This document shows, one piece after another, positions 1,614-63,564 of a stretch of 64,000 bases of DNA. The stretch is taken from positions 10,190,248 to 10,254,247 of the forward strand of contig NW_019211454.1 in the NCBI RefSeq assembly GCF_002443255.2. Direction: 5' to 3'. Below the pieces are notes generated by a model. The model made no database searches. It was not told the origin of the DNA and saw only the letters and a program-made list of their open reading frames with translations. Both the position numbers and the translations under genes were made by a program. The DNA is from Varroa destructor (Eukaryota; Arthropoda; Arachnida; Mesostigmata; Varroidae). Position 1 is the stretch's first letter. Every line of letters starts with the position of its first letter.

Positions 1614-1882
1614 AGGAACATCTGGGGTTGGTCGTCGTTCGCTCCTGGTGATCATCTGAAGCGTGATTTGCTATCCAAGTTGAAATCTCCGGTTCTAGAC
1701 AAGTACGGTTAAAAAAACTGACCAGTGACAACGCTTACTGTACATTCAACCTAGTTTTATATAGGTACCGGTAGGCAACTTGTCGAACAACAGATTTCTG
1801 ACAGTACGAAACAAGGTGTGTTTATGCCCGGATTCGAACCCATGCCGCCACGGGACTTTCACATCTGGCAAAAGAGTACGTT
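1614..1882 (-). repeat. tRNA-derived SINE, left arm of inverted pair
   Basis: 269 bp matching the reverse complement of 2438-2706 with about two mismatches seen by eye. Read on the minus strand it has a tRNA-like 3' half including GGGTTCGAATCCGGGCATA (RNA polymerase III B-box type) followed by a ~190-bp body. Minus-strand sequence just outside the arm (about 1883-1905) still looks tRNA-like. Confidence 0.8.
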
Positions 1883-2437
1883 GCCCAATACGCCATCGCG
1901 AGGATTAAAGCAGCCTCAGCTAGATACGATCAGCCGATCCGACGCTGGCGCCATCTGTCAGCTTCAATGGGAACTTCCTAGTCAACTACTCGTCAGTTTC
2001 ATCGATAATCGCTACATCCACTACCGCTAACTAAAGTAGCAATAAAATAATCTGTTCTTAAGGCGTGAAGTTAGAAAGGCGGCGATTTAATATCATCATC
2101 TCTCATCACGTCAGTCCACGGGATTAAGAAGGGTATATTGCAGCTCAGTAATTTATTTACCGGTTCACTTCGATTTTAACTTAACAACACCACCCTGCGC
2201 GACAAATCTCTCATCTTTTGTGCCTCTCGTACGCATATATTACTGCTTACGATTGGCTACCTGAGAACAGCAGTGAAAATCCAGAAATGAATTTACAATC
2301 ATATCCATTGCTGGTAGCAATCATACGGTAGGCCCATCGACACGGGTGCTGTGTATGAAAACGTCCTATAAATATATGTCATTAACAATTATTCTGGTTA
2401 TTTCTCGCTATCTATACATAGAAGCGAGAAAGCGGGT

Positions 2438-2706
2438 AACGTACTCTTTTGCCAGATGTGAAAGTCCCGTGGCGGCATGGGTTCGAATCCGGGCATAAAC
2501 ACACCTTGTTTCGTATTGTCAGAAATCTGTTGTTCGACAAGTTGCCTACCGGTACCTATATAAAACTAGGTTGAATGTACAGTAAGCGTTGTCACTGGTC
2601 AGTTTTTTTAACCGTACTTGTCTAGAACCGGAGATTTCAACTTGGATAGCAAATCACGCTTCAGATGATCACCAGGAACGAACGACGACCAACCCCAGAT
2701 GTTCCT
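2438..2706 (+). repeat. tRNA-derived SINE, right arm of inverted pair
   Basis: Inverted partner of 1614-1882, with a 555-bp unrelated spacer. The tRNA-like head is at 2438-2502 (…GGTTCGAATCCGGGCATA), then the shared body. No poly(A) tail or target duplication is obvious, so it could equally be the arms of a foldback element built from a SINE. Confidence 0.8.
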
Positions 2707-7725: not shown

Positions 7726-7986
7726 CTAGAAATCAATGCTGACAGGGTATTTTCCCGTCAGACAGGCTGTGCAGTGGCCAACGTCCTTGACTTTAGTACG
7801 GTCAATGCTTTTTCGCACGGCTGTCTCAAGTCCTTCGACCGACAAATGGATAAGGCTCTCGGCACCCAGTCCCTCTGCTAGCTGTGATGGATTCAACTTG
7901 TTAGCAATGAGCTCGTCAGATGTCGGGATATTAATGCCCATATAGCACGGGTAGTGTAGAGGTGGGGACGCAATTCGGATGTGAAC
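7726..7986 (-). CDS. PPAT: PPAT coding exon 7 (terminal, TAG stop)
   Basis: Acceptor aatgcag lies before 7986 and the stop TAG is at 7728-7726. It encodes [20 protein letters not shown] and the C-terminal [13 protein letters not shown], which carry the last three presumed Fe-S cysteines. The segment before GHCTAC is shorter than in vertebrates, which accounts for most of the length difference. Confidence 0.92.
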   Translation of the reverse strand, partial: VHIRIASPPLHYPCYMGINIPTSDELIANKLNPSQLAEGLGAESLIHLSVEGLETAVRKSIDRTKVKDVGHCTACLTGKYPVSIDF

Positions 7987-10900
7987 CTGCATTGAAGCAC
8001 ATTAAGAAAGTACAATGGTAAACAGGTTGGATAGAGTAAATATGGATATGGACTGTGTTTCTTAACTCCAACCAATTCATCCAAGTAATAAGTAAATAGC
8101 AAATTTCATAGCAGATATATTAAGAATTCGCCCATAAAAGACTTGAGTGCTTTGTATAGAACATTGTATTTCTACAATGCATGCGCACTCAGTTTCGAAC
8201 AGGCATGTAGTATACTATACTCAATAGCTATTCCCGATATAGCTTAACAAGATGCATTGTTCGCTATAAAGTTGGGAGTATGTTATTTTAAGCATAATGA
8301 GTTCTTATGCAAAACTAAGACTTACTGGAACAGATAGAAATACGACCGCTGAAGAAGTCACGATAATTACTACTCAATGATTTTTTTTTTTTTTTAAAAA
8401 AACGCCACATTATAACCTTCTATGAGGTAACAAATGTCTGCGGGATTCAATAGTCCTCTGAAGACATACTCTTTTGCTTTCCGCCACCGTTGCGTGTTCG
8501 TGTTGAATGTTCGAGATTGTGCTCGTATATGTATTGCACGAAACTATTAACAGAACCGTTGTTTTTTTTAAGAAGCAGGTTCATTAACAATGCTGACTAT
8601 GCCTTTTTTTTTTATATTACCTCTTGAGCTCCGGCCTCCTTGAGCAATTTGACGATCTGGCCGATAGTGGTACCCCGTACGATCGAGTCATCAATGAGAA
8701 TGATGCGTTTACCAACGAAGTTAGTTGAGAGGGGACCGAACTTTTTTGCGACACCGAGTTTTCGAAGCCTTGTTGATGGCTGGATGAACGTACGTCCTAC
8801 GTAACGATTTTTGCAGAGTACTTCTGCGTACGGGATGCCTGTACTCTGTGAGAAACCTGCAACAATAGAACGCGACGAGCATATAACAGCAACGGTAAGT
8901 AACTGGTAGAAGATCTACGAAGACATAGCTTAAGCCAGTACTGCTTTCTTGCATCTTTCATTGACATCCCTATATGAACTGTTTGTTCTAGGTCCATGCA
9001 GTCCCACTCAATACTCATGCGAAATGATTATCTCCATGCTCACAGTATGTCAGTCTTCAACTTGGAAATACTGGACTTACGACAGTGAGATTATTAAATA
9101 CGTTTGCCTGCTACATCTCGGTACACATGGTGATCTAAATGGAGGTATGCGAGTAGATATGCTTTGTTTCGGTACCAGTCGTCTGAAGTAATCCCTAACG
9201 ACGTAATTACTAAACGTAAGATACGGATAACGATTATTATGGGCAGTGATTATAAACCAGGATACAAATAGCTTCTTCAATATAGGAGTTCTTCAATACG
9301 CGCATCAATAGAGCAAGTTTCAATGCTCCAAAGGCAACCAGTATTGAAATCCTGTCAGTGAAACTGGTTATTAATAAGGGCTGACTTCCGTTCCCTATAA
9401 AAGTCCAGATCAAGTTCTACTCGAAAATTCCACGCAGCCTGTATTATTGGGACGGCAGCTTCCCTGAACTATATGTATATAGTACATGCTATATTTATAG
9501 TGTGCATAGTTTAATGCTGAATCACGATATTAAGAGCTGCTGTCTTGAAATATCTTACTAGGACGTGGACCACGGAGGAAATTTTCCTACTTTCTTGCTT
9601 TCTACATGTTTGGCGCTACGAGGAAAGTGGTGAACAATCAAATCCAAATACAACCAGTAGACATGGCGCGCCATCGAATATACCTTTTCGGAACCACGAG
9701 TCTGACATGATCCACCAGGAGATGCAGAATATTCAATAACGCCTCGATATTCTGTCAAATTCAGTTAGTTCCTCTTCAATGACCGAAAATACTAATGAGG
9801 TTATTTCATATCCTCTATTCGTTACTAGCTCTTTTTGTATATTACAACTCACAATAGCCTGTAAAACAGTTTGTCTTAAAACAGGGCTTTACGATGATAC
9901 GACACTAAGACATTACCCGCACATACATAAAAAAAAAAAATATCCTTAAGTTGTGTATTCTGATATTCGAAAATATCTCGAAGGACACCCGACTGGCACT
10001 TCCTGCCCTTATCAAATTCCTTTCACCCTATTGCAGAGCTTCAGGGGGCGGCGCTCAATTATCTTCGAGAAAAATTACCTTGATGAGGTTGCCCTGCGTT
10101 GTTTTCAGTCTACTGGAATCATGCAATATTAATATTACTGTTATTATTATTATTATTCAGCACGTTCAGAAGGCAAAGCTGCAAGGAAACTTCAACCCGT
10201 CCCGCTTACGTTGACGTATACTGTCGCAACTAGTAAAATTCAATGTGACTTCTAGTAGCGCTGGCGCTGCTAGCAACTGTACGTATATCGACCGTTGGCT
10301 AAGTGGGACTCTAGCGCCACTGCCACTCGAATCATCCTATAATAATCTCGTACAATTAGTTTGTATCTGAAAAGAAAGACTCATTTCTAGACGATGCTTG
10401 TACGCCTTGAACACATTAGGCTTGCAAGGCCAACCGGCTACCGACTGCCGCTCATTTCACGACACAAACGACATTCAATAGCCAAAATGCCCAAATGTAA
10501 TTTGCTAAATTATGGGTAGCTATTTCCATTTCGCGCTCTGTGTAGTTCGTTCCTGATCGTATAGAAGTTGAACAGAGAGAGAAGTGCTTCCTTGTTATTA
10601 GATTTTTTTTTTCATTGTACCATAATCGGCTACCTTAGTCCTTGTTGCTGAAATAGCACACAAGAACAATCGTATATATCACATTGTCTATGGCGAACCT
10701 AGGCCTTCATATAATTTACATGTATTTACGCGTACGTTCAGAACATCCCTTGTCAAAAAAAAGTTTCTGGCGTGTTTGCACGTAGCATATTGGTAGAGAA
10801 GAAAATAATAGAGAATGAAGGTATTTAGCTGTCATGGTTGCAAATAGTGAAGACATCTTCAAAAAAGGCAGTTCGCTTTGAAGGGAAAGAATAAAGGAAG

Positions 10901-13900: not shown

Positions 13901-16900
13901 TCATTATTCGTGCAGTATTTGTGCATGAAATAAACGCAAGCAATTCCGGATGGCTCATTATCTGTTAATTAGGTCTGCTCAGTCGGAGAACGGAAGCGGT
14001 CAGAATCCAATAGTAAGGGTGACGAAACGAGTTCGAATGAAATACGCTGCTATTTACATACCGAGGGCGGATGGCGTGGCGGATTCAGGCACAGTTGATA
14101 CGATGTCAGCATCGACAAATGCTTCTTGTGCCAGCTGACGACCACACTCCATGCGAACATCATAGACCATCTGGCCTTCAAAAATGGAGTCGGGCCTTGC
14201 AAAGTACACGTACTCAAATATGCAGAATGCCGGATCAACCGGGAATGGCCGTGGTACGATGCAGCAGCTGACAGGACCTCCTCGGGTCAGGGCAACAATT
14301 TCGCCGGGAAGCACCTCTCGATAGAGGGTAGCGCCGACTGATTTGAATGCGCAGGATTCTGATGATACCAGCCAACCTTCGGCAGACTCTTCAGGATGCT
14401 CGGGATCTGGGAACGCAAAATTCGCAGGTATACTAACGTAAGAATGAGTTCATCGAATAGAGCGATCTATTTAGTATTTACATTTTGTAAGACCTATTGA
14501 TCGTTATCAGAGTGACAGTTGTTTCACACATTAATACACTCCGACACATATGTGTGTTAAAAGCACTTAATTATATATACATATACATATATATATATAT
14601 ATACTAATAATGTTCGAACCGTTAATGTCTACCAAGTCGCGAACTTGCATCCTTGTGGTAAAGCAGCTTTATTGCTTGGCCTGTTCATTGGTGACGTAGT
14701 CTCGAAAAATATTTCCATTCAATTGCTGCATCAAGTAACCTTTGTGAACGGCCGTTGTACACCGGTCAAGCTAGTAGACCCAACAAATGGCACGGCTTAT
14801 ATAAACATCTGGGTTAAAAATGAAACACTTGTAACCAGACTCATTGTGTGAACAAGATAAAAACTATAGGCCTTGAATAGCATACGAACCGAACTTCTTA
14901 CGGTGAACCAATTATACTGCTCGTATAATAGATCTGTGTTGATGCCTAAAATATTATTTGGTGTTCTTTCAACAAAATCGGAAGAAATATCTTGGTCGCA
15001 ATATGCCTCCATTATGAAACATACATAATGGAGTAATCCTATTTGAATTGATAGAAAATGAGCGTCCGAAAGAGATTTCATACTAAACACAGACTTATCG
15101 ATAAGCAGGATACACTGAGAAAATCTTGTTTTCGATGATATCGAACTTGCGTATCAGTCTTCTATACGATGTGTATATTTCACCAGTTCATTACCTTTTT
15201 ATCATCAACATTTGAAAGCGAACCGTTTTCCAAAAAATGGTTTTTGTATCATAGTACCTATTCACTTTTCTTACATCTGTTTCTTGAGTTGATGTACATC
15301 GAAATTTTTTATTACATTACATTCATTTTCATTACAAAGATAACATCGCTCCTATGCGCGAATACCGGTCTGCTTCGCCTCCATTTTGTTTTTTTCTATT
15401 CCAGAGATCGAACCAACAGGCAGTGTGTTTAGTTACCCTGCTCGCATTGTCCGTGTACACAATCGACCGCGTTGCGGTCCGCTAATATAGTTCATTTGCA
15501 AATCACACGCTTGCATCTACGGCGTACGGAACACTCCATCATTATATATTTCATAGTTTTTATTGCATATCCTGCATCCTCTATTTTACCAGGGATCCAT
15601 CCGTCTTAAAGGCGACACCCGCATCCACACGGCTGCTGTCTAGGCTAAGGGAGGCATATATGGGTTCACTGCAGAGCTGAAGCTGTACACGGCGCTCTGT
15701 TTTTGTCATCGTATGTTTGCCACTCACCCAGAGAGTCAGGTGGAAGCTGACCCTGATAGTGCCCCGGGGAGTTTGTCATTACAAACTGTACGCGGTCATT
15801 TTTTCATATCGTATTGCGATCACAGCTAGAAAATAAAAAAAAAAAGTCGCTAGCGAGAGACAATGGTGCACGATCGGCACGCCGAGCGTCCGGGTATTGG
15901 TTTGCCACTGTCGTTGTCTAAAATCGTCTGAGAAGAACGCCAGAACGTGTCCGGCAGGTGTCCGGCAGAAGCAACGACGATGATAGTGGCGGCAGCAGCA
16001 GCAACTGCCAGACCACCTGGACATTGTTACCCTATAATATGGCGAAAGCAAGTTTCGAGATTCGCTAAGCGAGGCTCATGATAAGATGAGCTAGGTAGAA
16101 GATAAGACAATCGATGTTCAACTGTCATCAAATAGAATTCAGCTATCGTAATCATACAGCAGATTTAGCCTGATCGTTAAATTGCTACCATTCCTCCTCG
16201 AATTATATGTATACGGTTGACTATTTTCTAGTTGATAATCAAGATTGTACTACCCTTTTTTTTTTTTTTACTACCCTTCAACATACGTCTCTACAGATCT
16301 ACCGCGAACGTCTCCCGGGTAATTGAGAAACACGATAAGAGGACGCTTGGTTTCTGACCTAAGGTTTTACAGTTCTTTGCTCTCTGGGCTCGATATAAGA
16401 GCGATATCTAGCCGTTTGTGCTAGTACGTTATATCCCATCCGTACAGCTACGTTTCTTCGCACGTAATGACGCGTAGGGGCAAATCTCGATCGAGTGCAT
16501 TGAGATTCTCGGGATGAGATAGTTTTTTCGTTCATAGGTTCCGGCACGATTGTTGCTATAAACCTTCACTAAGCAAGAGCAAAAGTATAGTCCAACATAA
16601 CGAGTATGAGATGTCTATTCTGCGAGTCCTCTGACGGCCATCTTCCACGTCTGGTAGCACTCGGACAGTTCAATTCAACCCGTAGCTTGATTTCCAAAAA
16701 TTTTATATAATATGACATTAACACTATTTTTCAGCGCCTTGTTGTTTTGTAACGCCGCGGAACAAAAAAACGGGCGTTTCTTGTCCTACTTTAATTTTCC
16801 AAAAAAGAAAAAAGGACCAATAATGGAGAAGAACAGCCTGCAAAACCCAACGGTCTCAAATTGGATATGAGAGCAAATGCAGGCCAGTGTGGGGTCATAT

Positions 16901-19900
16901 GCTTGGTTACGGGTTGACTATTAGCCGATCAACACAAGGCGTTTTGTCGATACTTTTGACCTCACAGTGGAACACCCAAGTATGGCTGATGCGTTTATCC
17001 ATGATTCGTACTATAAATACACACTCATCCAATACGAAACTGTCATTTTCCTCACTCTAACTTATTAAGTTAGTTATACCTGTTCAGTGTAAATTCGTCA
17101 TAATTTGAATCCGCGAGTATTCCTCGTTTAAATTCACAAATTTGTTTAATTGCCCTAATTCATGATAATAGGTCTAATCGTCCTGTGACTTTGAAACAGA
17201 CGTCCCGCGATCTTGGGTCAATTATCTGTACTCTTATTTTAATCAGACTGTCAAAGTACTAACAATGCTTCGTTACCTCTTTGAAATTACGTCGCTCCGT
17301 CAAGATAAAGCTACTCTAAATTTTTAAAAGTTCATGTAAACGTTAGATCGCTCTAGAAACCAAAAAAAAAGCAATATGAAGACAGAAATGGGCAACGAGA
17401 TAGTCATTGAAGTTAATATCATATTCAGGAACACCGTGAACATAAATATCTTTCTTAAAAATGCAAGTTTGTGTCTGTTGTACAAAGCCGAAAGAAAACT
17501 AAGTAACTTTAACTATCAAGCACTTTGTCAATTCCCAGTCAACCCCAAAAGTTATTGGCCTCCTTCCATCTGTTCACATGACAAATTTAATAAATGACAT
17601 GATAATCGGCAGATACTGACATACCTCTGGGTCCTCCAGGGGGTAACACCATTCCAATGGACAATGGCCGATTGCCAAACGGATCCCTCACAGCGTAAAT
17701 CATATCATCATGCATCATAACTAGAGAGTAAGCTGTCGGCGTAAGTGACATAAGATTGCGAATACGCGCTGGCCAATCTGCACCATTTTTTTCCGACGTG
17801 TCCGGCGGCGGTTGGGAAAGGATCTGCATAATAAGCTCAGAGTCTGAGCCAGTTGTTAACCCGATACCCGCATTTAAAATCTGCAATAAAAGCTTACTTA
17901 TAGAGTTTTCGCATTTAAGTTGTTCAGGGTTAGCCTATAAGTTTGCAGTTATTTTCTGTTTGTAGTAAATGCATCTTTAACTAGGCGTCAATAAATAGCT
18001 GCGAGATTACTCGTATTTTTAGCCTGAAAATGTTATCTATTATAAGCGTAGTCTGCATTATCAGATCAACGCCAGTCAGCAAAAATTGATAATATTGCAT
18101 CAGTTGTTTTGAGGTGTAGCGGAGATCGGTGCTGATAAAAAGCATGAGACTCGGTAGTTTCGCTTCCGAAGTTTAGACGTTGATAAATCTATGACAAATG
18201 AACAGTGGCATAGCTTATGCAAAATATGAAGTACGTTTGTACAGCGTCTACTCTAATGTTTATTATTCTAGCTAAATCGCCGAATCAGTGGATTCTCAAG
18301 GATCTCCTAATGCTCACTGCCTCACAAACAGCAGTGGAAAAGCGTACTTGTAGGCTTGGAAGAAGGGCTCGCTTAAGAGGGAATACGACTAGATGGTATA
18401 CATAAATACGTTGAAATGGTTCGTAGAGGCAGCTCCGTTCAAAAGTTGCTAACTATTTAAGCATTAGTCCATCTCAATAGTCCCGAGTTCCGTGGCATCT
18501 ATCATAACACTAATAATTCCAGTTTGCTGTTGGCGTCGATAGACTAAACGTACAAGTTTAACTTAACGTGAACGATTTTGTAGTAACGTTTTTCAATGTG
18601 AAATAGTGCAGGCGTGCCGTGTCTGGCCGTACTTGAACCGGGCGAAAGCGTAAACAGAACTGATAGCAAGTTCGATAAGCTACAGCCTGAGGCCTCAATG
18701 AAAAGTTAAGGCATCCTCTCAGTAAGGATCAGATACACTGGTCCTTTCTTATGCACTAGAAGGAAACAAAGTAGATTTGCCTTAGCGGCGAACTGTCCAC
18801 ATCCAAGGAGCAAATTTCGAGAACCACTATTAGGAGAAATCTATTGGAACACTATTTAGCCTAAGACGATACTAATATTAAAGGGAACATAATTATGAAT
18901 TGCGGCTATTCGGATGAATGGTTATTCTGGTCACCCTATGTATGTACTGAAGGAGCTGAAACTGATAAAAATTAAGTTATATTAATTTTTGAAACTTTCT
19001 AAATAAACATTGGGACAAATAGTCTGTTTCTCGGCTAAGGAAAAATTATACAGAATACTTCTTGTATAATTAAGCTTAAAGGGCGTTACTATTGCCATGA
19101 GCATCTACTGGAGCAAGCACTAGAGTCTGCTTCACACGATTTTTTTACCTATATATATAATAGGTAAATATATATAATATTTATCTGTGTCTATAATTTT
19201 CTATGTGTTTGTTATTTCGATCATCGTGATAACTCGCGATCGCTTTGAACCTCCTATATTTTTCGCCTAAAATATACCAATATCAACCAATTAGGTTCCC
19301 AGCATCCTAGCTGTGAATAAATTTAGCTTTGCGAATCTGGGCTTTTTTACTGGATAGGTATTTCCACCGGATTTCACGTTAGCACCTATGTCGACCACGC
19401 CTCGTTTGCTAAATAGATAGCCACTACTCGACCGTTTGCGTTTCAAATGCAGTCCTTATCATAGAAGTCCGCAGTAGCTTTAGAGCCAATTATAAAATAG
19501 CAGCACCATCGACGCCTAAGGTCTTCACACATAGCATATCCTTTGAGGCAATGCCCAGACGCTTCCCTGGCTACCTGTTCATTCGCGACCGCCTTTACTG
19601 CCATAACCACCATCTTTTTTGCTTGGAAAAGGACTTTTTTGTTTTGTATGTGCTTAGTCTCGATCCCGTCTCAAATCTAAATTCCTCCTTTTATCAATTC
19701 GGCTTTCGAAAGCGCTTTGCAACCCTGAAACATGTCGGACTATCGTCAATGGCAATGAGACGGTTGGAGTATTTGTCGGCGCTGCCAAGGCCTTCGAACG
19801 TGTAGCTCATACTACTATTATCCCATCCAGAATTCTTTTATCATACCTTTTCACGGTTCTCGTGTTGTACGCTTACCAGATTCATCCAAGTTAATATCTC

Positions 19901-22900
19901 GGGAGTTCCCTCCGAAACTTATAGGAAATCAAAAATCCTACATCTCCACCAGAGCCTTAATTGATATATACACCAGAATATTGATTGAAATTAAAAATCG
20001 CTTTCTCGCCGATAAGCCTAGCTCAGGCTAACTCTTACCTTTCCACTGTACCGCTTTCTAAAACTTTCAAAAACAGTGGCAGCTTTTTCAAGTAGTTTTG
20101 CTCTCCCCATCCTGTTTGTTGTACTTTGACCGTTGATAACCACTCACCTCGGCGCAGTGGTATAGCTCCTTTCTTTAATCTCTTCTTACTCGACAATTTC
20201 ATATTGATCGTCTTCTGTCCATGTTATTTCCGTCTCCGCGAATGCAAACCTTAGTTTACAATCTCAAATTTGGTGCTGCCCTTTCGTACGGCGAACGGCC
20301 CGTAAGTGCGAAACAAAGCAGTTCCAAGCCGGAAATGTCCGTGCCCTTTTTAAACCTTCTTATTGTTCAACCCCGTACTCCTCCCGATGCCCCCAACCCC
20401 ACAAACAACGTGCCTGCCTCCCAGGCAGACTTGTTGTTTATGGTGTGTACCCTCGTATATCTTTCGCGGCAGCAGTTTTTATTTGCTGAAACTCTTTCAA
20501 TTAATCTGCTGAGTGTAATTTAAGAGCTTTGTGATTAACTATCGTTTTCATGAGCCCTATAGATGATATTTCTATTTGTGCCCTTTCATTATCACTGCCC
20601 TTACCGCACCTTAATCAGCTCACCTCGTTTTAATGAATCCGTTCTACTTTCCCGTTATCGGTGTTTCTTGTTAATGTGACCAGTATTGCTATTAGAATTA
20701 TTTTTCATTGCACTTCTTTACGTATCCTCCTGTGAAACCCCTGCAATTCCATTAGTTGTCGAGACCCATATAATAAGACCACCCTAATATACCACCATTA
20801 CTGATCGCCGAATTTTCGCCAACGTGCATTATGTGAGCCAATATATATTCTATGCAGAAATTATGAAAAGCTCAAAACTGAAATCTATGTTCTACAAGTA
20901 CGAGAGTGTCTCATTGTTGTCCTGTCAAAATTGAATCTCATTATGTACCGATAATTGACCATTATGTAGAATAGAGACTAATAAAATCCTCGTATGTAAG
21001 TTCTCTAACGCTGAAGTAATTCGGTAATATGGCTGAGGGGTAATACTGCTGCGCAGAGATGATGCCATTACAGAATCGAACAGGAAATACGACATGAGTG
21101 TTTGATACAGATCATTCAATTATCGCATTATCTCGCGAACCCCCACGACCCTTGTCCGCACCACCCGATTATATTGATGAATCAGCCAAATATTAATCTA
21201 TTCACTTACATACCTTTTTCATCAACAAGCGTAGACGTGACGTATTCCTATTTTGCAATTTGTGTGGAACTTGTGTCTGCCACCCACATTCGAAGATTTG
21301 ATCCCTTATCTACAGTAATTGATAACCCTGCTTGTGTTCCTGCAGCCGAATTCTATGGGTCTCCCTATTTAGAAGGCCAGGTGGGGAACAGAATGGCTAA
21401 GGTAAAAAGTATAACTCAAGATGCAATACCTTTGCCAATAACACCAGGAATTGTTTAAGAATTGTGAACCCTAAGCGACACCGCGTCTGCCACTGTCGTT
21501 TAATGTAGATTAGTTTGACGAAATAAAACATATTTAGAAGCCAAAGGTTTTCGCTCGGCTAAGGGCAAAACGAGGAAACACTAAATATCCTTGTGGCCTG
21601 GTCGTTGGACGCACATTTGGGGTAGAAAACTGGGGCTTTTTGGTCAGGAAACTGCAACAACAACGACAGCAACAAGAAGTTTAGCTGCATGAGGGTAACG
21701 AATTTAACCGATGGTGATAATAATTAGTCGCCACACGCTAAATTTTTACCCGACTAATCACAAATATTTAGTTCCTAATTTACAGGGAGGCTGCCAAAGA
21801 TAATCGTTATCTAACATTGTATTACTGTGATAGCTGTGGCTCACGCAAATTGGGTCTACTGAACAGATGTGCGGCTGTACTCGAGATGAAGTGATTCGTA
21901 CTGGACGACGATGTGCCATCGTGCATTTAGGGGATATTTTCCATTTCGAGTACTGCTCTCGCCGAGCACTGCCGTAGTAATCATTGTGTATATGTGTGAA
22001 CGAATGAATCGAAACAACAAACGTCGTGAGTCGTGTTGCTATAGCAAAGGGTACCGAGTGCGATGAGTCTGTGGTTAGCAAAAGGCTGCCGTGCGGCGCA
22101 GCTTTATCGTGCCCGCGCTGAGAGACGCTTCTGCTCGAGCAAGGCAGGAAGGCAGCCGATTAAGAAGCTTCTTGCTGCTAATCGGGGTGAAATTGCCATT
22201 CGAATTTTTCGTGCGTGTTCGGAATTGGGCATTCGGTCCGTTGCCGTCTATTCGGAACAGGACAAAATGCATATGCACCGTCAGAAAGCTGACGAGTCCT
22301 ATCTGATAGGTCGAGGATTGGCGCCAGTACAAGCGTATCTTAATATTGCTGAGTATATCAGTATTGCTAAGGAGAATGATGTAGACGCTATTCATCCTGG
22401 TTATGGTTTCTTATCGGAGCGTCCAGATTTTGCGGAAGCTGTTATCAAGGCCGGTCTTCACTTTATTGGACCTTCGCCGGAAGTCATGGCCGAAATGGGC
22501 AACAAAATTGCAGCGCGAAAGTGCGCCATCCAGTGTGGCATCCCAGTTATTCCTGGCACAGACAAGCCAATTGTAAGTGCTGATGAAGCATACAGGTTTT
22601 GTAAAAACTATGGTCTACCCGTTATGCTTAAAGCGGCTTACGGCGGGGGCGGACGGGGAATTCGTGTAGTGAGAGAGCTTGAGGACGTCAAAGAAAGTTT
22701 TCGCCGAGCGGCATCCGAAGCGGAAAGTGCGTTCGGAAACGGGGCTTTATTCATCGAACGCTTCATTGAGCATCCTCGCCATATAGAAATCCAGGTATTA
22801 GGCGATAAGACAGGTCACTTGGTCCATTTATACGAGAGAGACTGCTCTGTGCAAAGGAGACACCAGAAAGTTATTGAAATCGCTCCCGGTCTAAGTATGC

Positions 22901-25900
22901 CCGAAAAGGTACGTCTCGCTATGCACGCGGATGCCATCAAGTTGTGCTCCTATGTTGGCTATCAAAATGCGGGCACAGTTGAATTTCTACTGGATGAAGA
23001 CGGAAGTTATTACTTCATCGAGGTAAACGCTCGACTACAAGTGGAGCATACGATCACTGAAGAAATCACTGGAGTGGATCTGGTTCAGTCGCAGATTGAG
23101 ATTGCTAATGGCAAAACGCTCAATGAGCTTGGGCTAACCCAGAATAGCATCAAAACTACAGGCTGTGCAATTCAATGCCGCGTGACTACTGAGGATCCGG
23201 AAAAAGGATTTCAGCCAGACTGTGGCAGGATTGAGGTGTTCCGAAGTGGTGAAGGTTTTGGCATCCGTTTTGACAGTGCACTGGCCTTTGCGGGGGCCAT
23301 TATTTCACCGTATTATGATTCTCTACTGGTTAAGATAGTCTCTCACGGGAAGGATATGAAGGCTTCAGCTAACAAAATGCGACGAGCCCTAAGAGAGTTT
23401 AGGATTCGAGGCGTGAAAACGAACATTCCTTTTTTACTTAACGTTATCCAGAATCCAACGTTTCTAAGCGGAAATTTTGACACGAACTTTATAGATGAGC
23501 ATCCGGAATTATTCAAGCTCACACCAGCTCGAAACCGAGCTCAGAAATTGCTCTATTACCTTAGTGACGTTGTTGTCAATGGCCCGTTGACTCCATTAGC
23601 TACGGGTCTCAATCCTGCAAAAATTACCCCTGTTGAACCATCCTTCGATACTTCTAATAGACCCGTTTCAGGTTTCAAACAAATATTGGACGCGGAAGGA
23701 CCTGAGGGTTTCGCCAAAGCCGTCCGGCGGCACAACGGACTTCTACTGACGGACACCACATTCCGTGATGCTCATCAGTCATTACTAGCAACGAGGGTTC
23801 GTACCATTGACATGCTAAAAGTCTTACCTTATGTGTCATGTAAGTTCCACAACTTCTACAGTCTTGAGAACTGGGGCGGGGCTACATTTGACGTAGCCAT
23901 GCGTTTTCTTCGTGAGTGTCCCTGGGAGCGACTAGAAGAGATGCGCAAACAAGTGCCTAACATCCCGTTCCAGATGCTGCTTCGAGGAGCTAATGCCGTT
24001 GGCTATGCGTCGTATCCAGATAATGTCGTTTTCAAGTTTTGTGAGCTGGCCAAACAATGCGGTATGGATATCTTTCGTATTTTTGACTCGCTCAATTACT
24101 TGCCCAATATCCAACTTGGTATTGAGGCGGTCGGAAAGGCTGGCGGGGTTGTTGAGGCAGCGATCTCGTACACCGGAGATGTAGCGAATCCTTACAAGAC
24201 GAAATACAACCTTGACTATTACCTTAAACTTTCCGATGAACTCATAAAGGCAGGCGCACATGTTATTTGTATCAAGGATATGGCTGGCCTACTCAAGCCC
24301 AAAGCATGTCGAATGTTAGTCGGCGCTCTCCGTGAGCGACATCCCACAGTACCTATTCATATTCACACCCACGACACCGCTGGCGTCGGGGTTGCCTCGA
24401 TGTTAGCGTGTGCTCACGCTGGGGCAGACATTATTGATGTAGCCGTCGACTCCATGTCGGGTATCACTTCTCAGCCGACAATGGGTGGACTGGTAGCCTG
24501 TTTACAGCACACCCCGTACGATACGAGGGTCAATCTGAAAGACGTCAGTGACTATTCCGCCTACTGGGAGCAAACCCGCATGTTGTATGCTCCCTTTGAA
24601 TGTACCACAACGATGAAATCGGGTAATGCTGACGTGTATGAGAATGAGATTCCTGGTGGGCAGTACACGAATCTCCAGTTTCAGGCGTTTGCCTTGGGCT
24701 TGGGTGAAAACTTTGAAAGTGTGAAGAAAGCCTATGCTGAAGCCAACCAGCTCTTAGGAGATATTATCAAAGTCACGCCATCATCGAAGGTCGTCGGAGA
24801 TCTTGCGCAGTTCATGGTACAGAATGGACTCAGCTCTCAAGACATTATCAATAGGGCGCAAGAACTGAGCTTCCCCACATCAGTGGTAGAGTTTATGCAG
24901 GGATACATCGGTCAACCGTATAAGGGTTTCCCTGAGCCTCTTCGATCACAAATCCTGAAGGACACCTATCGCATTGAAGGCCGACCAGGCGAGTATCTGC
25001 TTCCATTGGACCTGGAAGCACAAAAGGAGAAACTGCAAGACTATTTTCGTACGGTTCATATTCGAGACACTGACGTCATGTCCTATGCAATGTACCCCAA
25101 GGTCTATGAGGACTTCGTTAATTTTCGAAACCAATATGGACCTGTGGACAAATTGGATACGAGAATCTTCTTTGTTGGACCGGATGTAGGTGATAACTTT
25201 GAAGTTACAATTCAACGTGGAAAAACGCTTCACATCAAGATGCTAGCGGTATCTGCTAACGTTACCGAGAAGGGCGAGCGGGAGGTATTCTTTGAATTGA
25301 ACGGTCAATTGAGGTCTGTTTTTGTTCTAGACAAAACGCATTCGGAAGTTATCGCATCGAACCCAAAAGCAGATAAGGCAAATCCGGGCAGTGTTGGCGC
25401 GCCTATGCCAGGTTCAATAATAGATGTCAGGGTTAAGGTAGGCGACATTGTCAAGAAAGGTGACCCACTTGTTGTACTCAGTGCGATGAAAATGGAGATG
25501 ATCGTCCAGGCCCCGGTGGCAGGGGAAGTGAAATTGGTAACAGCTGTGAAGGACATGCGGATGCAGGGTGACGACTTATTGGTCGAAATTGACTGTGATT
25601 TAACGAGAGAGCTGAATGAGGAATAGAGGTGACAACAACGAGAGCAACAAAAAGTTTAGCTGCATGAGGGTAACAGATTTAACCGATGATGATAATAATT
25701 AGTCGCCACACGCTAAATTTTTACCCAACTAATCACAAATATCTAGTTCCTAATTTACAGGGAGGTTGCCAAAGATAATTGTTATATAACATTATATTAC
25801 TGTGATAGTTGTGGCTCACGCAAATTGGGTCTACTGAACAGATGTGCGGCTGTACTCGAGATGAAGTGATTCGTACTGGACGACGATGTGCCATCGTGCA

Positions 25901-28900
25901 TTTAGGGGATACTTTCCATTTCGAGTACTGCTCTCGCCGAGCACTGCCGTAGTAATCATTGTGTATATGTGTGAACGAATGAATCGAAACAACAAACGTC
26001 ATGAGTCGTGTTGCTATAGCAAAGGGTACCGAGTGCGATGAGTCTGTGGTTAGCAAAAGGCTGCCGTGCGGCGCAGCTTTATCGTGCCCGCGTTGAGAGA
26101 CGCTTCTGCTCGAGCAAGGCAGGAAGGCAACCTATTAAGAAACTTGTTGCTGCCAATCGGGGTGAAATTGCCATTCGGTCAATACGGAATTGGGTATTCG
26201 GTCCGTTGCTGTCTATCCGGAACAGGATAAAATGCATATGCACCGTCATAAAGCTGACGAGTCCTATCTGATCGGTCGAGGATTGGCGCCAATACAAGCG
26301 TGTCTTAATATTGCCAAGTATATCAGAATTTCTAAGGAGAATGATGTAGACGCTATTCGTCCTGGTTATGGTTTCTTATCATGAGCGTTCAGATTTTGCG
26401 GAAGCTGTTAGTAAGGCCGGTATTCACTTTATTGGGCCTTCGCCGGAACCCATGGTCGAAATGGGCGACAAAATTGCAGCGCGATAGTGCGCCATCCAAC
26501 GTGGCATCCCAGACAAGCCAATATTTTGAGTGCTGAAGAAGCATAGGGATTTTGTAAAAACTATGGTTTACCCGTTATGCTTAAAGCGGCTTACGGCGGG
26601 GGCGGACCGGGGATTCGTTTGGTGCGAGAGCTTGAGGACGTCAAAGAAGCGGAAAGTGCGTTCGAAAACGGGACTTTGCTCATCGAACGAATTGAATGGA
26701 GAATAGAGGTGGACACCTGCTGTGAACTAACATATAAACATCTGCGGAAAATCAGATTCATTCCAGCAAATAAGGGAGGCGTTGGTCCGGGAATTGTTTC
26801 TATACAATCGTATCAGTCTCTTCTTTAGCGTTAAGATTGATTGTTTTGAGCCATAGTGACCAATGTGTGAAGGCTACAGGGTGACAAATTACTGAAGTAA
26901 CGTACACATAACGAATAAAGCCAGCAACGATACGAAAACAATTCATATGGCAAAAACGAATGAAATGCTCAGTTTTGTTCGACAGAAACGCGTAATCCGA
27001 TGACTATCTTCTTATACTGTGTACACCTGATAGAACATCGTGACGATAGGTCGGATTATTGTAAGTTCGGGCCTATTGTCGGCATCCGATCTTCAGACTA
27101 AGAGCGACAGTTAACGGACTGTAGATTGTCGTTTTCTTCAAGCTTTGAACTAATCGTGCATCATGCAGACTCAGCATAGATTAGGTAGGCTACGACTCAT
27201 ACCATCGTTGAGATACCGGACGATCTCCCGCCTGATCATCTTTAGAGATGCTGATATCATCAGATCAAATGGGCTTTTAATACTTACCTGTTGACATGGA
27301 ATTTAAACTAAAATACGTACGTGAAGTTTCGCTAGCGTTATAAAATTGAGTACTTATTTATTTAGATACTGTTTTAAAATAAGCGAAAGTTAGCGTAGCC
27401 GTTCACAGCTGTAACTAAATATCATTATTTATCGTCGTACCTATGCAGCTTTTTTATATCATCCCATATTCATTCATAACGTGTTTCGATTGAAATGGTC
27501 TGCAAGAAAAAACTTGCAGGAAGACCACTAGCAGGTCATCCATTAGATCGTATATGTAATCACAACATGTTAACTTTACCCTTTTCCGAAGTTTGAGAGC
27601 ATTAACAAGTTCCCCATTATGTGCAATTGCCAAAAGTCCATGATTTGTATGCACGACGAATGGCTGTGCATTCTCGTGCTCGGAACCCCCAACAGTAGAG
27701 TACCTAAAAATGGTGAGCCGAACAAATACCGGAATTAGTTTGTTTGCGATACAAAGATGGACCTATTCAACCGCATCATACTCTGTCACGCTATAATTTT
27801 ACTCGACTCACCTGGTATGTCCTACTCCGAGATTTCCATTTAGTTTTTGCATAGAGGCTTCATTGAAAACATTACTAACTAGCCCCATGCCTCTATGCAC
27901 CGCGAAAGTTTTCACGTTACCTCCTTTACTGGTGACAATGCCAGCGCTTTCTTGGCCCCTGAAACATACAGGTAACAATAAATCATAAATTACATTACAT
28001 TACACTGTGTAAGTATATGGTGGCTATTTGTTATCAAGCTACAAAAACATTCTAGCAACTTAATTGGACCGAGAAAACGTATAGACCGTGGAAATTTTTA
28101 TCATCGTAAACAGTAGATAAATTTATTTAACTCAGGTCGACTGGCACTTGGTCCTTGACGCTAATGTCTGTGTTACGGACCTTAACAACTGTTATTCTTT
28201 GACGTCACGAGTTTCCTCCAGTTTTCGTTAAGGACATACTAGCCGAAGGCTGTCTTTTTTCATTCAGTTCAAAAGGTGGTTTTCCGAACTTGTTAGGAAT
28301 ATACCCGCCAAATATCTCGCATAGTCCAAACTGACATTTTGCGTAGATTAACCTACATAACTATTTCGTTAAAAGTTTCGGCTAAAAGTGTGTGTGCACG
28401 ACTAAATGTTGCGATATTTCGAGGAAGCATGGCCATGAGTGGCTTTCCATTTACGAGCTGCGTTCAAATTAACATAAGACCACTTATCTCTACCTATTAC
28501 AGTAGCAGTTATTACTCCAGGTTTTGTACCTCTGCTTCTAGTATCGTCGTTAGGTATTACATTGGGCAGCTGTCAGAAGAACCGCCTATGCCCGGCTTCG
28601 AACCTAGAGCACAACGTGCCTCTAGGATTAGCAGGCAAATACGTTACCAACTAACCTACCATGGGAATGTAGACCATGTGAAGTGTCCATAGTTTTAATG
28701 GGCGAACATGTTATCACTGCACCGTAATGGGGACACTCACCGGCAACACGGTAAACGTTGATTGTTTCCGACTTCGTTGCAGTACCAATTAAATTTCAAA
28801 GAATATCGAGACGGAGTGTGTGATTCCACGGATACCCCACCGATACTCGGGAATGCCCTTAATTATTAGACAGTAACTTCATTTGTTTACGTTCATGTGT

Positions 28901-31336
28901 GAAGAGGTCTTCATATCGTAAACAACATGTGTACGAAAAGCATGTATTCATCATGCGATTGAAAAAATACTTGTGTCAATATAAAATATGATTAAAAACG
29001 AACCTACGTTTCTGATACTGGAATGAGAGGCTGAGTTCCCTAAAGTTACTTATTAGTTGTAACAATATATTACGATGTCATTCTGGTGCTTGCGCACTCT
29101 TAGCGAATAGTGTAGAATGGTAAAAACTCTAATAATAATTGTGCCCATCTAGACAATTTAGGTTAATGATTTTTTTCTGCTGCCTCGCTACCCCCTATAC
29201 AAAAGCGTTCTAACGTGACGAAAGGTCAGCAACTCTCGATTGTTGATAATGGGCCTAAGTTTACGCCACATGCTTTCCCGGCGGTTTTTCACGTCTGCGC
29301 GTCGTCGCCGGTCACCTTCTACTTTGTCTGGTGTTACTGCATCAATAGCTTACGAGATAATTATTGTTGGAGACGACAACGACAAGTTGCTATTACCTCG
29401 TCTTTCGATTAAGTCGGTGAAACGGAAAACAATCGTCTACTTCATCCGAGCGTTAAAAGACAACGCATGATCCACATTTACTTTTGCTCTTGTCCTCATT
29501 GTACTCGAGGTATGAGTACATCGTAACTTTTCCTGGGTTAGAACCTTGCGATTCGCAACCTGATCAGTAGTAGATGGGCAGAAGTGCAAAAACCGGTCGT
29601 AACCCATCATTTCCTCTGACTTACTCTGTACTGCATCGAATGTTTATCGTTACAACTAATGAATACGCACGTGCGAATACGGGAACCACCGTCGTGAGCT
29701 TATGTAGACAGGAGCTATTCCAATAACAGTTTCGTATTGTATTTTACGTCCGGCACTTTGGACCGTTGGCTCCCAAGGCAAGATAAAGTCTGTAGAGTTC
29801 GATCATAGATCACCACAGGTCCCCAAGTTTAGCAGGCGACAACAACGTAGCTTGTAGCACTATCACGGCTACATGGATTCCAGCGGCAAATACAACAAGG
29901 TCAAACTAAACCTGGTAAAGCCTACACAATCTACAAGATAATAAGAGATCGTATTTCGAAGAGGGCTGAAATCGGAGTAATCTAGCATTGAGACAGTGCT
30001 AGTGTCCCCTGTTCCGCACAACCAGCGACGTTCCTTTCGGCAGAGCACCCTCATTATTCCCATTCTGATATCTGTCAAGGCTACATAGTATTCTAGGACG
30101 GCAGGCGTCCTCGCTTGATGATAGGTTGCACAGGAAGTCATTAGAGAATAGGCATAGCCATTAAGCTAGTTAAATAAGTTTCTAGTAAGTTTCAATGTAT
30201 CGAGGTAAGTGGCTGTCGTATGCGATTGCTACAACGACGAGCATATCAATTTCCTGCGTCCGTCTACAAATAAAATACTGTTGAATAATTCAGTGTTGAG
30301 GTTTGAATTTATAGGGTCATCGTAAAAGCCTGCTTACATGGTAATAATCACTACAAAAGCGGAGGTCAACGGTGGTCGATCTACCGTTATTCGCACGGAT
30401 TAGCTCACGATAATAGTTACAATCGCAATGGCCGTACGGTATGGACATATGTGTATATATTCTTAAACGAGGGCCCGCTTTGCTCCCTTTTGAGTTATTT
30501 TCTGTCCTCCTCGGCCTACACGAAGCTTCCCAACACTCCACACTTTTTCCCCTCTATCTATGACAACCTAGCAGATAGAGGGGAGCTATTGCGGCAAGCT
30601 TTAGTGGTGGTAGCACGCTATCGGTGCGACGTGCGTGTTGACCAGATATCGGGGGCAACTGTGTGATGGTGCTGATAGTGTGCCACCTTAGCCGCAGCGC
30701 TGCTAAGGTACCTTACGTGACTTGAAAACGTCATCCATACCAGCCTGAATTGATTGCTCTTTTTTTTGCTCGCGACCTTCATATTCGATTCTGGCTAAGC
30801 TTTTATGGTAGTCTTTTAATTTCAGGCGCTTTGAGCCCTTTAAGCACGTGCCAACTGTAGGGCATATCGAACCGCAGTGAAAAATTGTATTCGCCCTGTT
30901 CTACAAGGGTTGATCACCCGGCAAGCGGACATGATTAAAACTTGCTATATTGTCGTATTGTGTGGCAGATATTTTATCACTATGAGAAATTGCTTGCGCA
31001 AATATGCTATACGATCATTCTAGACAAGAAAAGATCGTATCTCATCATTATGCACAAGGCTATCGCTTGAAGGTAGAGTTCAGTGAAAATGTCCGTTGTT
31101 CCATGTCATGGTGGATCTAGATAGGGAAATCGTTTTTACGTAAACTTTAGTCGAAATCAGTGCGCTTACCGGTGTTGTAGAGCCACAAGTCCGAGACAAA
31201 TCGAATGCGCAATGTCGATCTGTGAGGGCCATTCTCCACTTCCAATGGCAGCAAACACACCGCAGTAATGACGTAGCTCGTCATCCTCTTCAAAATCGCG
31301 CATCAGCATTGTTTCAATTGAAGGGTCGCAAGTCAT
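7726..31336 (-). CDS. PPAT: Amidophosphoribosyltransferase (glutamine PRPP amidotransferase), 7 coding exons
   Basis: Transfers glutamine amide nitrogen to PRPP to make phosphoribosylamine, the first committed step of cytosolic de novo purine synthesis. I joined seven exons: 31170-31336, 27812-27958, 27580-27703, 17625-17880, 14062-14406, 8621-8856 and 7726-7986. All introns are GT..AG, the frame stays open and the product is 511 residues, close to the ~517 of vertebrate PPAT. Visible parts: a short acidic propeptide ending at Tyr24; catalytic Cys25 of the class II glutaminase (CGVF); HTRYST at 103-108; AHNGEL at 133-138; the FARPDS block at 300-305; and the PRPP loop [10 protein letters not shown] at 401-410. 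The four presumed 4Fe-4S cysteines are present at 293 (AFC), 439 (YPC), 497 and 500 (HCTAC). Start chosen: the first ATG after a plausible acceptor at 31351; Met10 or Met12 would give a propeptide nearer the usual length. Intron 3 hosts the antisense pyruvate carboxylase gene. Exon edges are read by eye. Confidence 0.93.
7987..8620 (-). other. PPAT intron 6
   Basis: 634 bp, GT..AG. It contains a T15 run at 8381-8395; nothing else recognised. Confidence 0.85.
8621..8856 (-). CDS. PPAT: PPAT coding exon 6
   Basis: Acceptor gttgcag lies before 8856 and donor GTAATA begins at 8620. It encodes [27 protein letters not shown] and the PRPP-binding loop [13 protein letters not shown], the best-conserved phosphoribosyltransferase motif. 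It ends in phase 0. Confidence 0.9.
8857..14061 (-). other. PPAT intron 5
   Basis: 5.2 kb, GT..AG, AT-rich, with an ATT run near 10142 and TA tracts near 11.06 and 12.36 kb. No coding region recognised; the minus-strand frame at 13488-13763 (91 codons) is open but unidentified. Confidence 0.8.
14062..14406 (-). CDS. PPAT: PPAT coding exon 5
   Basis: Acceptor ttcccag lies before 14406 and donor GTATGT begins at 14061. It encodes [38 protein letters not shown] and [12 protein letters not shown]. This holds the first Fe-S cysteine and the junction between the glutaminase and phosphoribosyltransferase domains. An alternative acceptor about 26 bases upstream (ttag) would give the wrong frame. Confidence 0.9.
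14407..17624 (-). other. PPAT intron 4
   Basis: 3.2 kb, GT..AG. A GC-richer patch at about 15.6-16.0 kb carries CAG-type triplets and a doubled GTGTCCGGCAG (15947-15968). No gene recognised. Confidence 0.8.
14571..14603. repeat. TA-rich microsatellite in PPAT intron 4
   Basis: Imperfect then perfect TA repeats, immediately upstream of PPAT exon 5 on the minus strand. Confidence 0.8.
17625..17880 (-). CDS. PPAT: PPAT coding exon 4
   Basis: Acceptor attgcag lies before 17880 and donor GTATGT begins at 17624. It encodes [15 protein letters not shown], a variable loop with [10 protein letters not shown], then [11 protein letters not shown] and the conserved [11 protein letters not shown]. It ends in phase 1 and lies 9.7 kb downstream of exon 3. 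Confidence 0.9.
19551..19900 (+). mobile_element. Decayed jockey-like LINE reverse transcriptase fragment
   Basis: In one frame [12 protein letters not shown] resembles the QYGFRK.ST block. After a frameshift [16 protein letters not shown] resembles motif A (VGVFLDL.KAFD.VDH). The two blocks are in correct order and spacing for a non-LTR reverse transcriptase. It lies in PPAT intron 3, on the strand opposite to PPAT, about 2 kb before PC. Nothing clear follows after about 19.9 kb. Confidence 0.5.
21657..22062 (+). repeat. 5' flank of PC, duplicated copy 1
   Basis: This ~406-bp block before the PC ATG recurs at 25632-26037 with only scattered substitutions (by eye about 95% identical). It presumably holds the PC promoter and 5' untranslated region. 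Homology starts abruptly at 21657 (acaacaacg), marking the left edge of a 3975-bp tandem unit. Confidence 0.9.
22063..25626 (+). CDS. PC: Pyruvate carboxylase, intronless, nested in PPAT intron 3
   Basis: Biotin enzyme converting pyruvate, bicarbonate and ATP to oxaloacetate in the mitochondrial matrix. One uninterrupted reading frame of 1187 residues, about the length of animal PC. Order of parts: a basic, Arg-rich leader (1-35) with RRFCSS, consistent with mitochondrial import; biotin carboxylase from [10 protein letters not shown] (38-47) with the ATP-grasp loop [11 protein letters not shown] (191-201) and [10 protein letters not shown] (320-329); carboxyltransferase with TTFRDAHQS (565-573), CIKDMAG around Lys738 and HIHTHDT (766-772). 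Presumed metal ligands are Asp569, Lys738, His768 and His770. The biotinyl domain has SAMKMEM with Lys1143. ATG chosen because it starts the leader directly. No frameshift or stop breaks it, so it looks functional. It lies antisense to PPAT and shows no introns, poly(A) tract or target duplication, so retrocopy origin or intron loss is inferred, not shown. The stop is followed within 6 bases by a copied 5' flank, so its own 3' UTR is missing or replaced. Confidence 0.95.
25632..26037 (+). repeat. 5' flank of PC, duplicated copy 2
   Basis: Second copy of the PC upstream block, starting six bases after the PC stop codon. It leads straight into the degraded PC copy. Because it may keep promoter activity, transcripts of the pseudocopy are conceivable. 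Confidence 0.9.
26038..26706 (+). pseudogene. Truncated, collapsed tandem copy of pyruvate carboxylase
   Basis: Repeats the first ~230 codons of the upstream PC gene at an offset of 3975 bases, with the same ATG and leader. It is broken by an ~11-bp loss after GEIAIR (frameshift), a TGA near 26383, a Lys codon changed to TAG near 26486, a 15-bp loss after the CGIP codons and a 24-bp loss after the EDVKE codons. After the IER codons (26687) it jumps about 2.84 kb to the last PC codons and the TAG at 26704-26706. It retains both ends of the gene, so the middle was deleted after duplication. It cannot encode PC. Confidence 0.88.
26914..26919 (+). terminator. Candidate polyadenylation signal for the PC locus
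   Basis: AATAAA about 1.29 kb after the PC stop and 208 bases after the pseudocopy's stop. If the intact gene has no nearer signal, its transcript may run through the pseudocopy to this point. This is inference from position only. Confidence 0.2.
27580..27703 (-). CDS. PPAT: PPAT coding exon 3
   Basis: Acceptor ttttag lies before 27703 and donor GTAAAG begins at 27579. It encodes the end of the HTRYST motif, then [16 protein letters not shown], and stops in phase 0. It is separated from exon 2 by a 108-bp intron, the shortest in the gene. Confidence 0.9.
27812..27958 (-). CDS. PPAT: PPAT coding exon 2
   Basis: Acceptor tttcag lies before 27958 and donor GTGAGT begins at 27811. It encodes [13 protein letters not shown] through GVGHT plus two bases of Arg105, the central part of the glutaminase domain. 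The 147-bp length keeps phase 2 on both sides. Confidence 0.9.
28586..28660 (-). repeat. tRNA-derived SINE head, same family
   Basis: The minus strand reads GGTTAGTTGGTAACGTA … GGTTCGAAGCCGGGCATA, with A-box-like and B-box-like blocks in tRNA spacing. It shares the …TTCGAA-CCGGGCATA end with the inverted pair near 1.6-2.7 kb. It lies in PPAT intron 1, in the same orientation as PPAT. The downstream body was not delimited. Confidence 0.6.
30549..30583. repeat. Perfect 11-bp inverted repeat
   Basis: CCCCTCTATCT and its reverse complement AGATAGAGGGG are separated by 13 bases, within PPAT intron 1. Confidence 0.7.
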
Positions 31337-62481: not shown

Positions 62482-63564
62482 TTACTTAAGACGAAGTCGC
62501 AACCTCCGTCGATGCAGAAGGTATAACACGAATTGTACGAGCACAGGCCAAAGTAAAATCGCTGCAAGGGTATGTGGCTGGATTCCGCCTAGAAGCGACC
62601 AACGGTTTGCCCGTCGGCGTTCCTGTAGAGTACGTTCGAGGTTATCCAGGCGTCGGACTACCTCATCCATTGTGTACTGAAGACGTACGACTGCGTATGA
62701 AAGGTTATCTACTGGTTGTATTCGGCTGAATGCGTCGGCGTTATTAGGTTGTCGACCTCCACCGCTGGGAGCTCTTTCCGCTGTAAACGAATCTCCAGCA
62801 GAAAAGCCTAACGAAGACTCCCCTGCGATCCAGCCACCCCTCGACGACGACACCGGCGGCACTCCGCCCCCTGGAAACGGTTCCCTGTTAGAGCCCATAT
62901 ACGGGGCAATGGGCGGCGGAGGATAACTGTTTGGGTCACCACCGCCAGCCTTGATGTGATTATTATTGTTGTTATTATTTTTCATATTCTGATACTGCAC
63001 TGAATGGCCGTTGACGATTTCGGCTTGGCCAGGACCGTCCTCCTGGACATGATTGAACGTATCGGAATAGTCTTCGCCGTCCGTATCGTGATCGCCATCG
63101 AGCTTCTCTATGTCATCTTCCGAGTGGCGTTCAGCGTCATCAGCGGCATTGCCATCTCCAACTAGCTTGTGAAATTCATTGGGTACGTTGTCAAGACACG
63201 TAATGTCGCCGAGAAGCGGTCGAAAAAGGGCGATATGCTTTGGTTCGGAGTACGACAGTGCCTCTTTTACTTCTTCGGGGCTGGCTTTGCACTGAAGTTG
63301 CTTGATTGTTGACACGAATTCACTAACGTATTTCTCCATCGCTTCTTCCTTTGTCATCGACCGGAGTCCGTTCCAGGCATCGTATTTGGCCCGACCAACA
63401 ACATCCCAGAAAGATGGCCGCGAACCTTTGCATGAACCTTCAGTCGCCTGCTTATAGTGTGAATAGAAAGTTAGTTGCATGGCGTATGGCGGCTGGAAGC
63501 TGCCATTTTTTGGCAAATTTCGAATGATCTGCACGGCGGCGTTGAATCGGTCTTCGACGGACAT
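62482..63564 (-). CDS. Tail-anchored acyl-CoA-binding protein, ACBD4/5 type
   Basis: Uninterrupted 360-residue frame. Residues 3-90 form an acyl-CoA-binding domain with RFNAAV, LPKNGSFQPP, YSHYKQATEG, FWDVVGRAKYDAW and MTKEEAMEKYV, which binds long-chain acyl-CoA. An acidic tract follows (about 138-176) containing EDYSDTFN (164-171), resembling a weak FFAT/VAP-binding motif. Then come poly-Asn (196-202), a Pro/Gly-rich linker, a likely coiled coil (about 290-318), a hydrophobic segment (about 332-350) and a basic tail HRRRLRLRLK. This order matches ACBD5, a peroxisomal tail-anchored protein that tethers peroxisomes to the ER. Start: ATG at 63564, since its MSVEDRFNAAV lines up with the family N-terminus; the frame is open 11 codons further but only from a TTG. 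No intron interrupts it, which is notable. The 3' flank overlaps no other gene. Confidence 0.9.
   Translation of the reverse strand: MSVEDRFNAAVQIIRNLPKNGSFQPPYAMQLTFYSHYKQATEGSCKGSRPSFWDVVGRAKYDAWNGLRSMTKEEAMEKYVSEFVSTIKQLQCKASPEEVKEALSYSEPKHIALFRPLLGDITCLDNVPNEFHKLVGDGNAADDAERHSEDDIEKLDGDHDTDGEDYSDTFNHVQEDGPGQAEIVNGHSVQYQNMKNNNNNNNHIKAGGGDPNSYPPPPIAPYMGSNREPFPGGGVPPVSSSRGGWIAGESSLGFSAGDSFTAERAPSGGGRQPNNADAFSRIQPVDNLSYAVVRLQYTMDEVVRRLDNLERTLQERRRANRWSLLGGIQPHTLAAILLWPVLVQFVLYLLHRRRLRLRLK

Follow-up and report, generated by a model that had tools for sequence, protein, structure and literature searches.

In Drosophila, an intron of the purine-synthesis gene Gart contains a gene for a cuticle protein, encoded antisense to Gart, an arrangement for which a literature search yielded no paper. 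Across 62 animals, about 20% (18,468) of 84,483 retrogenes are intronic, according to the available portion of one survey (PMC5408686), and the portions available of two reports indicate that transcription of a nested gene can truncate the transcript of its host (PMC13309782; PMC5408686). For the TipE cluster, which lies in the last intron of insect CG18675, the accessible text states that nesting has been gained more often than lost (PMC3240667). Here we describe a 64,000-nucleotide stretch of the genome of the mite Varroa destructor (referred to as the window), in which an intact pyruvate carboxylase (PC) gene, termed PC-B, lies antisense within intron 3 of the purine gene PPAT. PC-B is probably a second, functional Varroa PC, and would be an old duplicate that plausibly arose by retroposition. 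The features on which this description rests are:

22063-25626, plus strand: PC-B, an intact single-exon PC coding sequence (CDS) with biotin carboxylase (BC), carboxyltransferase (CT) and biotin carboxyl carrier protein (BCCP) domains and a basic N-terminus, from the open reading frame (ORF), profiles and structure alignment
17881-27579, minus strand: PPAT intron 3, 9,699 bp, phase 0, GT-AG, holding PC-B and B', from splicing
25632-26711, plus strand: B', a pseudogene in tandem with PC-B and in the same orientation, copied from its 5' flank and N-terminal coding part and carrying frameshifts and two in-frame stops

The PC-B reading frame encodes 1187 amino acids from an ATG start to a TAG stop, and is the only ORF of at least 300 amino acids that overlaps 17881-27579. 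The protein scores 1848.8 bits against NCBIfam TIGR01235 (cut-off 1114.45) over residues 35-1176, which covers the full BC-CT-BCCP chain, and eight Pfam families match it. Residues 30-1177 align with the mitochondrial PC 7wta, which we take to be the human enzyme. The ATP-grasp loop and GGQYTNL are among the stretches of the catalytic region that match 7wta at the level of motifs (the alignment is shown to residue 997), and these motifs presumably have their usual roles. The biotin motif LSAMKMEM is also present in the second Varroa PC (PC-A, see below) and in Ornithodoros. Nine motif strings, which were taken from PC-B itself and are informative only through their presence in other proteins, are found in PC-A (7/9), the Tropilaelaps protein P0004 (4/9) and Ornithodoros (8/9). 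The initial annotation had proposed an intact, intronless PC of 1187 codons, and this is what the locus contains; its further statement that all catalytic residues are present holds at the level of motifs, through the match to 7wta and the shared biotin motif. The identity of about 81% to a normal PC makes the predicted fold of PC-B near certain. The N-terminal 31 residues contain eight lysines and arginines and one acidic residue, a composition typical of mitochondrial import, and PC-B would be a biotin-dependent enzyme that converts pyruvate to oxaloacetate in mitochondria. The whole CDS is contained within PPAT intron 3 on the opposite strand, making PC-B a nested gene at the level of its coding sequence. 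The intron of about 9.7 kb with an antisense PC inside it had been predicted, with limits correct to the base.

The V. destructor genome (366,193,577 bases in 112 contigs) was searched for further copies; the window corresponds to C1:10190248-10254247 on a contig (C1) of 76,898,487 bp. A family search gave three matches, with four candidates scored, and a protein search gave 30 matches, with 28 candidates scored. Among the candidates scored there are two intact PCs, PC-B and PC-A. PC-A is located at C1:73053472-73048937 on the minus strand, 62.8 Mb from PC-B, and consists of two coding exons with a single 1,005-bp phase-0 intron after codon 906; its translation is exactly that of the annotated protein P0001. 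A search for a second, intron-containing PC had been suggested by the initial annotation, and PC-A, with its one coding intron, is that gene. PC-B is 81% identical to PC-A and has no coding intron, and the PC family proteins PC-A and Tropilaelaps P0002 and P0004 are 78-81% identical to PC-B. Weaker matches in the protein search, on C1 at 3.6 Mb and on C4, C6 and C7, look like related biotin carboxylases. The possibility that PC-A exons are hidden in the window was rejected, as a search of the window yields PC-B and B' only. About 8 kb upstream of PC-A, near C1:73064755-73061126, lies a decayed PC copy (A'). It is interrupted where PC-A has its intron, by 459 bp with GT-AG ends, a correspondence drawn by eye from position and splice signals. 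The sequence of this interruption gives no match to the PC-A intron. A' takes no firm place in trees (path 3.64, AU p 0.22-0.49; AU, approximately unbiased test), so A' does not indicate whether the PC-A intron is ancestral.

PC-B is under purifying selection. Over 1177 aligned codons PC-A and PC-B diverge by 0.144 at first, 0.071 at second and 0.558 at third codon positions, and 63% of 465 fourfold sites differ. The non-synonymous distance (dN) is 0.114 (NG86) or 0.115 (LWL85), and the synonymous distance (dS) is undefined (NG86) or 1.79 (LWL85), i.e. saturated. The comparison of dN and dS advised by the initial annotation thus indicates purifying rather than relaxed selection (dN about 0.11 with saturated dS). 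The decaying copy B' serves as a neutral control within PPAT intron 3. Amino acid changes between PC-B and B' were polarized with PC-A, two Tropilaelaps and two tick proteins, and synonymous changes with PC-A. Over the codons that can be compared, of 28 amino acid differences five fall on PC-B, 20 (including two stops) on B' and three are ambiguous, whereas the 16 synonymous differences are divided into six, seven and three. The near-equal synonymous counts combined with the fourfold difference in amino acid changes (5 versus 20, binomial p 0.004) indicate constraint on PC-B. In a neutral simulation of the ORF at 0.054 changes per site, our estimate of the change since the local PC-B/B' duplication, a mean of 6.6 stops is expected and 0.15% of 2,000 runs remain without a stop. 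A chance ORF is ruled out by these values, and a contaminant by the mite proteins that are closest to PC-B and the PPAT exons on the same contig. The suggestion that the copy kept its function agrees with a reading frame retained under purifying selection, as expected of a functional copy. The suggestion that it took over function is not supported in the sense of an intron-rich gene being replaced; both copies persist and PC-A is the slower of the two.

In phylogenetic trees PC-B groups with Tropilaelaps P0004 (support 92/95, 92/93 and 86/95), with the short-branched Varroa PC-A and Tropilaelaps P0002 next to this pair, and a site-heterogeneous model unites PC-B with P0004 in every tree built. 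Similarly, PC-B and P0004 uniquely share four derived residues in strictly invariant outgroup columns (six under a 75% rule), PC-B and PC-A share two, and the other four pairs share 0-1 each. These groupings suggest that the PC-A/PC-B duplication probably predates the Varroa-Tropilaelaps divergence, and a duplication in Varroa only is disfavoured. P0004 is also faster than P0002 in four of four relative-rate tests. The annotated start of P0004 aligns with PC-B residue 55, about 22 residues inside Biotin_carb_N, so that this gene model probably lacks its first part.

The mode of copying is plausibly retroposition, because PC-B lacks the sole coding intron of PC-A, and retroposition remains a simple way to place an intron-free copy 62.8 Mb away in another gene. 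The ancestral gene probably already had few introns. In ticks PC is spliced at a point aligning with PC-B residue 532, where a 9-residue insert at residue 540 is the sole difference between Amblyomma isoforms P0010 and P0014, and neither Varroa gene is interrupted there. This suggests that at least the tick-site intron was probably lost before PC-A and PC-B separated. A massive intron loss unique to PC-B was rejected, as PC-A itself has one coding intron. Of the earlier proposal that an intronless enzyme suggests a retrocopy or complete intron loss, a retrocopy is plausible, but with one coding intron in PC-A the lack of introns in PC-B is not striking and does not on its own establish retroposition.

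Several results count against the reading of PC-B as an old, functional and retroposed copy. With regard to function, the 2x2 Fisher test on the PC-B and B' counts is not significant (p 0.135). PC-B outpaces PC-A in four of four relative-rate tests (unique changes from 80:50 to 72:37, p 0.001-0.011) and deviates at 21 of the 598 columns that show no variation among 15 other PCs; the corresponding counts, with the tested protein removed from the reference set, are 12 of 610 for PC-A and 7 of 605 for P0002. Identity to PC-A falls to 36% over the N-terminal 31 residues (28 codons, dN 0.65, dS 1.27). PC-B is missing from the matches listed in the protein searches, so that an annotation pipeline may have lacked a transcript for it or taken it for a pseudogene. 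With regard to age, PC-A and P0002 do not form a supported clade (p 0.445 with the pair enforced). A duplication confined to Varroa is not rejected by the AU test (p 0.070, at a cost of 9.4 log units for enforcing PC-B with PC-A), nor are two further rival groupings (p 0.070 and 0.131). In addition D147N, one of the four residues shared by PC-B and P0004, is absent from B' and may be a parallel change. With regard to copying, the lack of one intron is a weak argument for retroposition, and as PC-A and PC-B differ in a single coding intron the name retrocopy is weakly founded. The plus strand of PPAT intron 3 contains no run of seven or more A residues and thus shows no poly(A) tract, although age would erase such a tract.

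The alternative that survives best concerns the mode of copying. PC-B may have come from a duplication at the DNA level, either from an ancestor that lacked the codon-906 intron, subsequently gained by PC-A, or with the loss of one intron by PC-B itself. We regard this as quite possible, with the balance leaning somewhat away from it. It has to account for only one coding intron, both Varroa genes are uninterrupted at the tick splice site, and the interruption in A' beside PC-A, together with the copying of B' along with its flank, means that the PC family also duplicates at the DNA level. Against it stand the distance of 62.8 Mb and the position of PC-B inside an unrelated gene. When compared with the window sequence the 1,005-bp PC-A intron has no match beyond chance (best E 0.053), nor do the 3-kb flanks on either side of PC-A match those of PC-B (best E 0.65), although flanks of that age need not align.

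A duplication specific to Varroa, with PC-B joining P0004 only as both are fast-evolving duplicates, is unlikely. The long end branches of PC-B and P0004 (0.20-0.23), the AU result and the two derived residues common to PC-B and PC-A only are what this would produce; the site-heterogeneous model nevertheless joins PC-B to P0004 throughout, and the shared derived residues favour that pair by four to two. Finally, an inert retrocopy whose frame survived by luck would fit the absence of PC-B from the listed protein-search matches and its faster evolution, but is very improbable in view of the low dN with saturated dS, 1187 codons without a stop while B' decayed in the same intron, and neutral survival in 0.15% of simulations even over the time since the PC-B/B' duplication.

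The reading of PC-B as an old functional duplicate can be set out as a sequence of events. A PC gene, probably poor in introns by then, would have been duplicated, probably before the Varroa/Tropilaelaps split, and the duplicate would have landed antisense within PPAT intron 3, where it would work, probably in a restricted tissue or stage. Later, the PC-B 5' flank and gene would have been duplicated in tandem and the downstream copy would have decayed to B', now between PC-B and the original 3' flank. The elements relevant to these later steps are:

21657-22062, plus strand: PC-B 5' flank, a probable promoter and 5' untranslated region (UTR) duplicated with the CDS, its role being predicted; CpG observed/expected 1.34
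21851-22154, plus strand: near-identical PC-B/B' stretch of 5' flank and first codons, three differences in 304 sites
26914-26919, plus strand: candidate poly(A) signal, the sole AATAAA/ATTAAA on this strand from the PC-B stop to the intron end

The tandem duplication has set the PC-B stop almost directly against the duplicate of the PC-B 5' flank, and the original 3' flank therefore lies beyond B'. B', which the initial annotation does not mention, is certain to position 26689; its final 28 bases match the end of the PC-B CDS less well (79%), and if these represent the gene end, B' probably has a large internal deletion. Within 21851-22154, the limits of which were picked after viewing the alignment, the copies differ at 1% of sites (3/304) compared with 60/748 elsewhere (p 1e-6), the adjoining stretches differing by 6-11%. 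This near-identity would fit gene conversion, or selective constraint if both copies share a promoter and leader. About two AATAAA/ATTAAA motifs are expected by chance, by our estimate, in the span in which one is seen. If the signal at 26914 is used, B' would form part of a candidate PC-B 3' UTR. An intact gene and its decaying tandem copy within one intron constitute a natural experiment.

The host gene PPAT has seven coding exons on the minus strand, as the initial annotation had stated, each placed by splicing:

31170-31336, minus strand: PPAT coding exon 1
27812-27958, minus strand: PPAT coding exon 2
27580-27703, minus strand: PPAT coding exon 3
17625-17880, minus strand: PPAT coding exon 4
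14062-14406, minus strand: PPAT coding exon 5
8621-8856, minus strand: PPAT coding exon 6
7726-7986, minus strand: PPAT coding exon 7, including the stop codon

Joined across six GT-AG introns, these encode 511 amino acids with no internal stop, identical over the whole length to V. destructor P0194. Antisense interference of PC-B with PPAT is possible. A speculative proposal, which we consider a long shot, is that a second mitochondrial PC, evolving faster and regulated separately, is maintained in parasitic mesostigmatid mites, and that its antisense position in PPAT couples anaplerosis to purine synthesis, such that full-length PPAT would fall when PC-B is transcribed. Elsewhere in the window, a 388-codon open frame at 62485-63648 (minus strand) carries a PF00887 domain (acyl-CoA binding protein; E 1.3e-26). 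The same peptide-like stretch occurs at 1755-2027 (plus strand) and 2401-2565 (minus strand), in opposite orientation and less than 400 bp apart, and this pair looks like an inverted repeat element.

PC-B is absent from the best 120 matches listed in each of two protein searches, in which an identical entry would rank first. Since even the control PC-A comes from ncbi, uniref and nr alone, the lack of PC-B entries in further sources carries no information on its expression. An annotation pipeline may have dropped PC-B, taking it for a one-exon copy of a gene that is spliced. In the Tropilaelaps and Varroa genome papers (PMC5467014, PMC6773775) the main text, as far as available, never uses the word 'pyruvate'. 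A literature search gave nothing, by title, on this gene for Varroa and PC or for intronless PC, and no paper on retrogenes in Varroa; one on duplicated mitochondrial genes and testis led no further. PC-B adds to the genes of a much-studied bee parasite a whole metabolic enzyme under selection that did not appear in the protein database searched, and single-exon copies that resemble processed pseudogenes can be overlooked. PC is not single-copy in Varroa, which is relevant to anyone silencing or inhibiting it.

PC-B is a nested, single-exon paralogue under selection, most likely an old one, and the arrangement is of an already known kind. Its nearest relatives, PC-A and Tropilaelaps P0002 and P0004, belong to the same family and have the same domain order; PC-A differs in its one intron and its locus, and P0002 and P0004 were compared as proteins. 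Like Gart, PPAT is a purine-synthesis gene with an antisense gene in an intron, although the nested gene in Drosophila is a cuticle gene and the purine gene is a different one. As in the TipE cluster in CG18675, so far as the accessible account describes it, an old arthropod gene has been retained in a host intron; that cluster comprises several genes, whereas PPAT intron 3 holds one gene and one pseudogene. Similarly, like Mcts2 in H13 and KTI12 in TXNDC12, as these are described in the portions of the sources available, PC-B is encoded by one exon and sits within an intron of a gene to which it is unrelated. It is distinguished from both by a likely parent with one coding intron, by its antisense orientation, age and large size (1187 codons), and by being known here from sequence alone.

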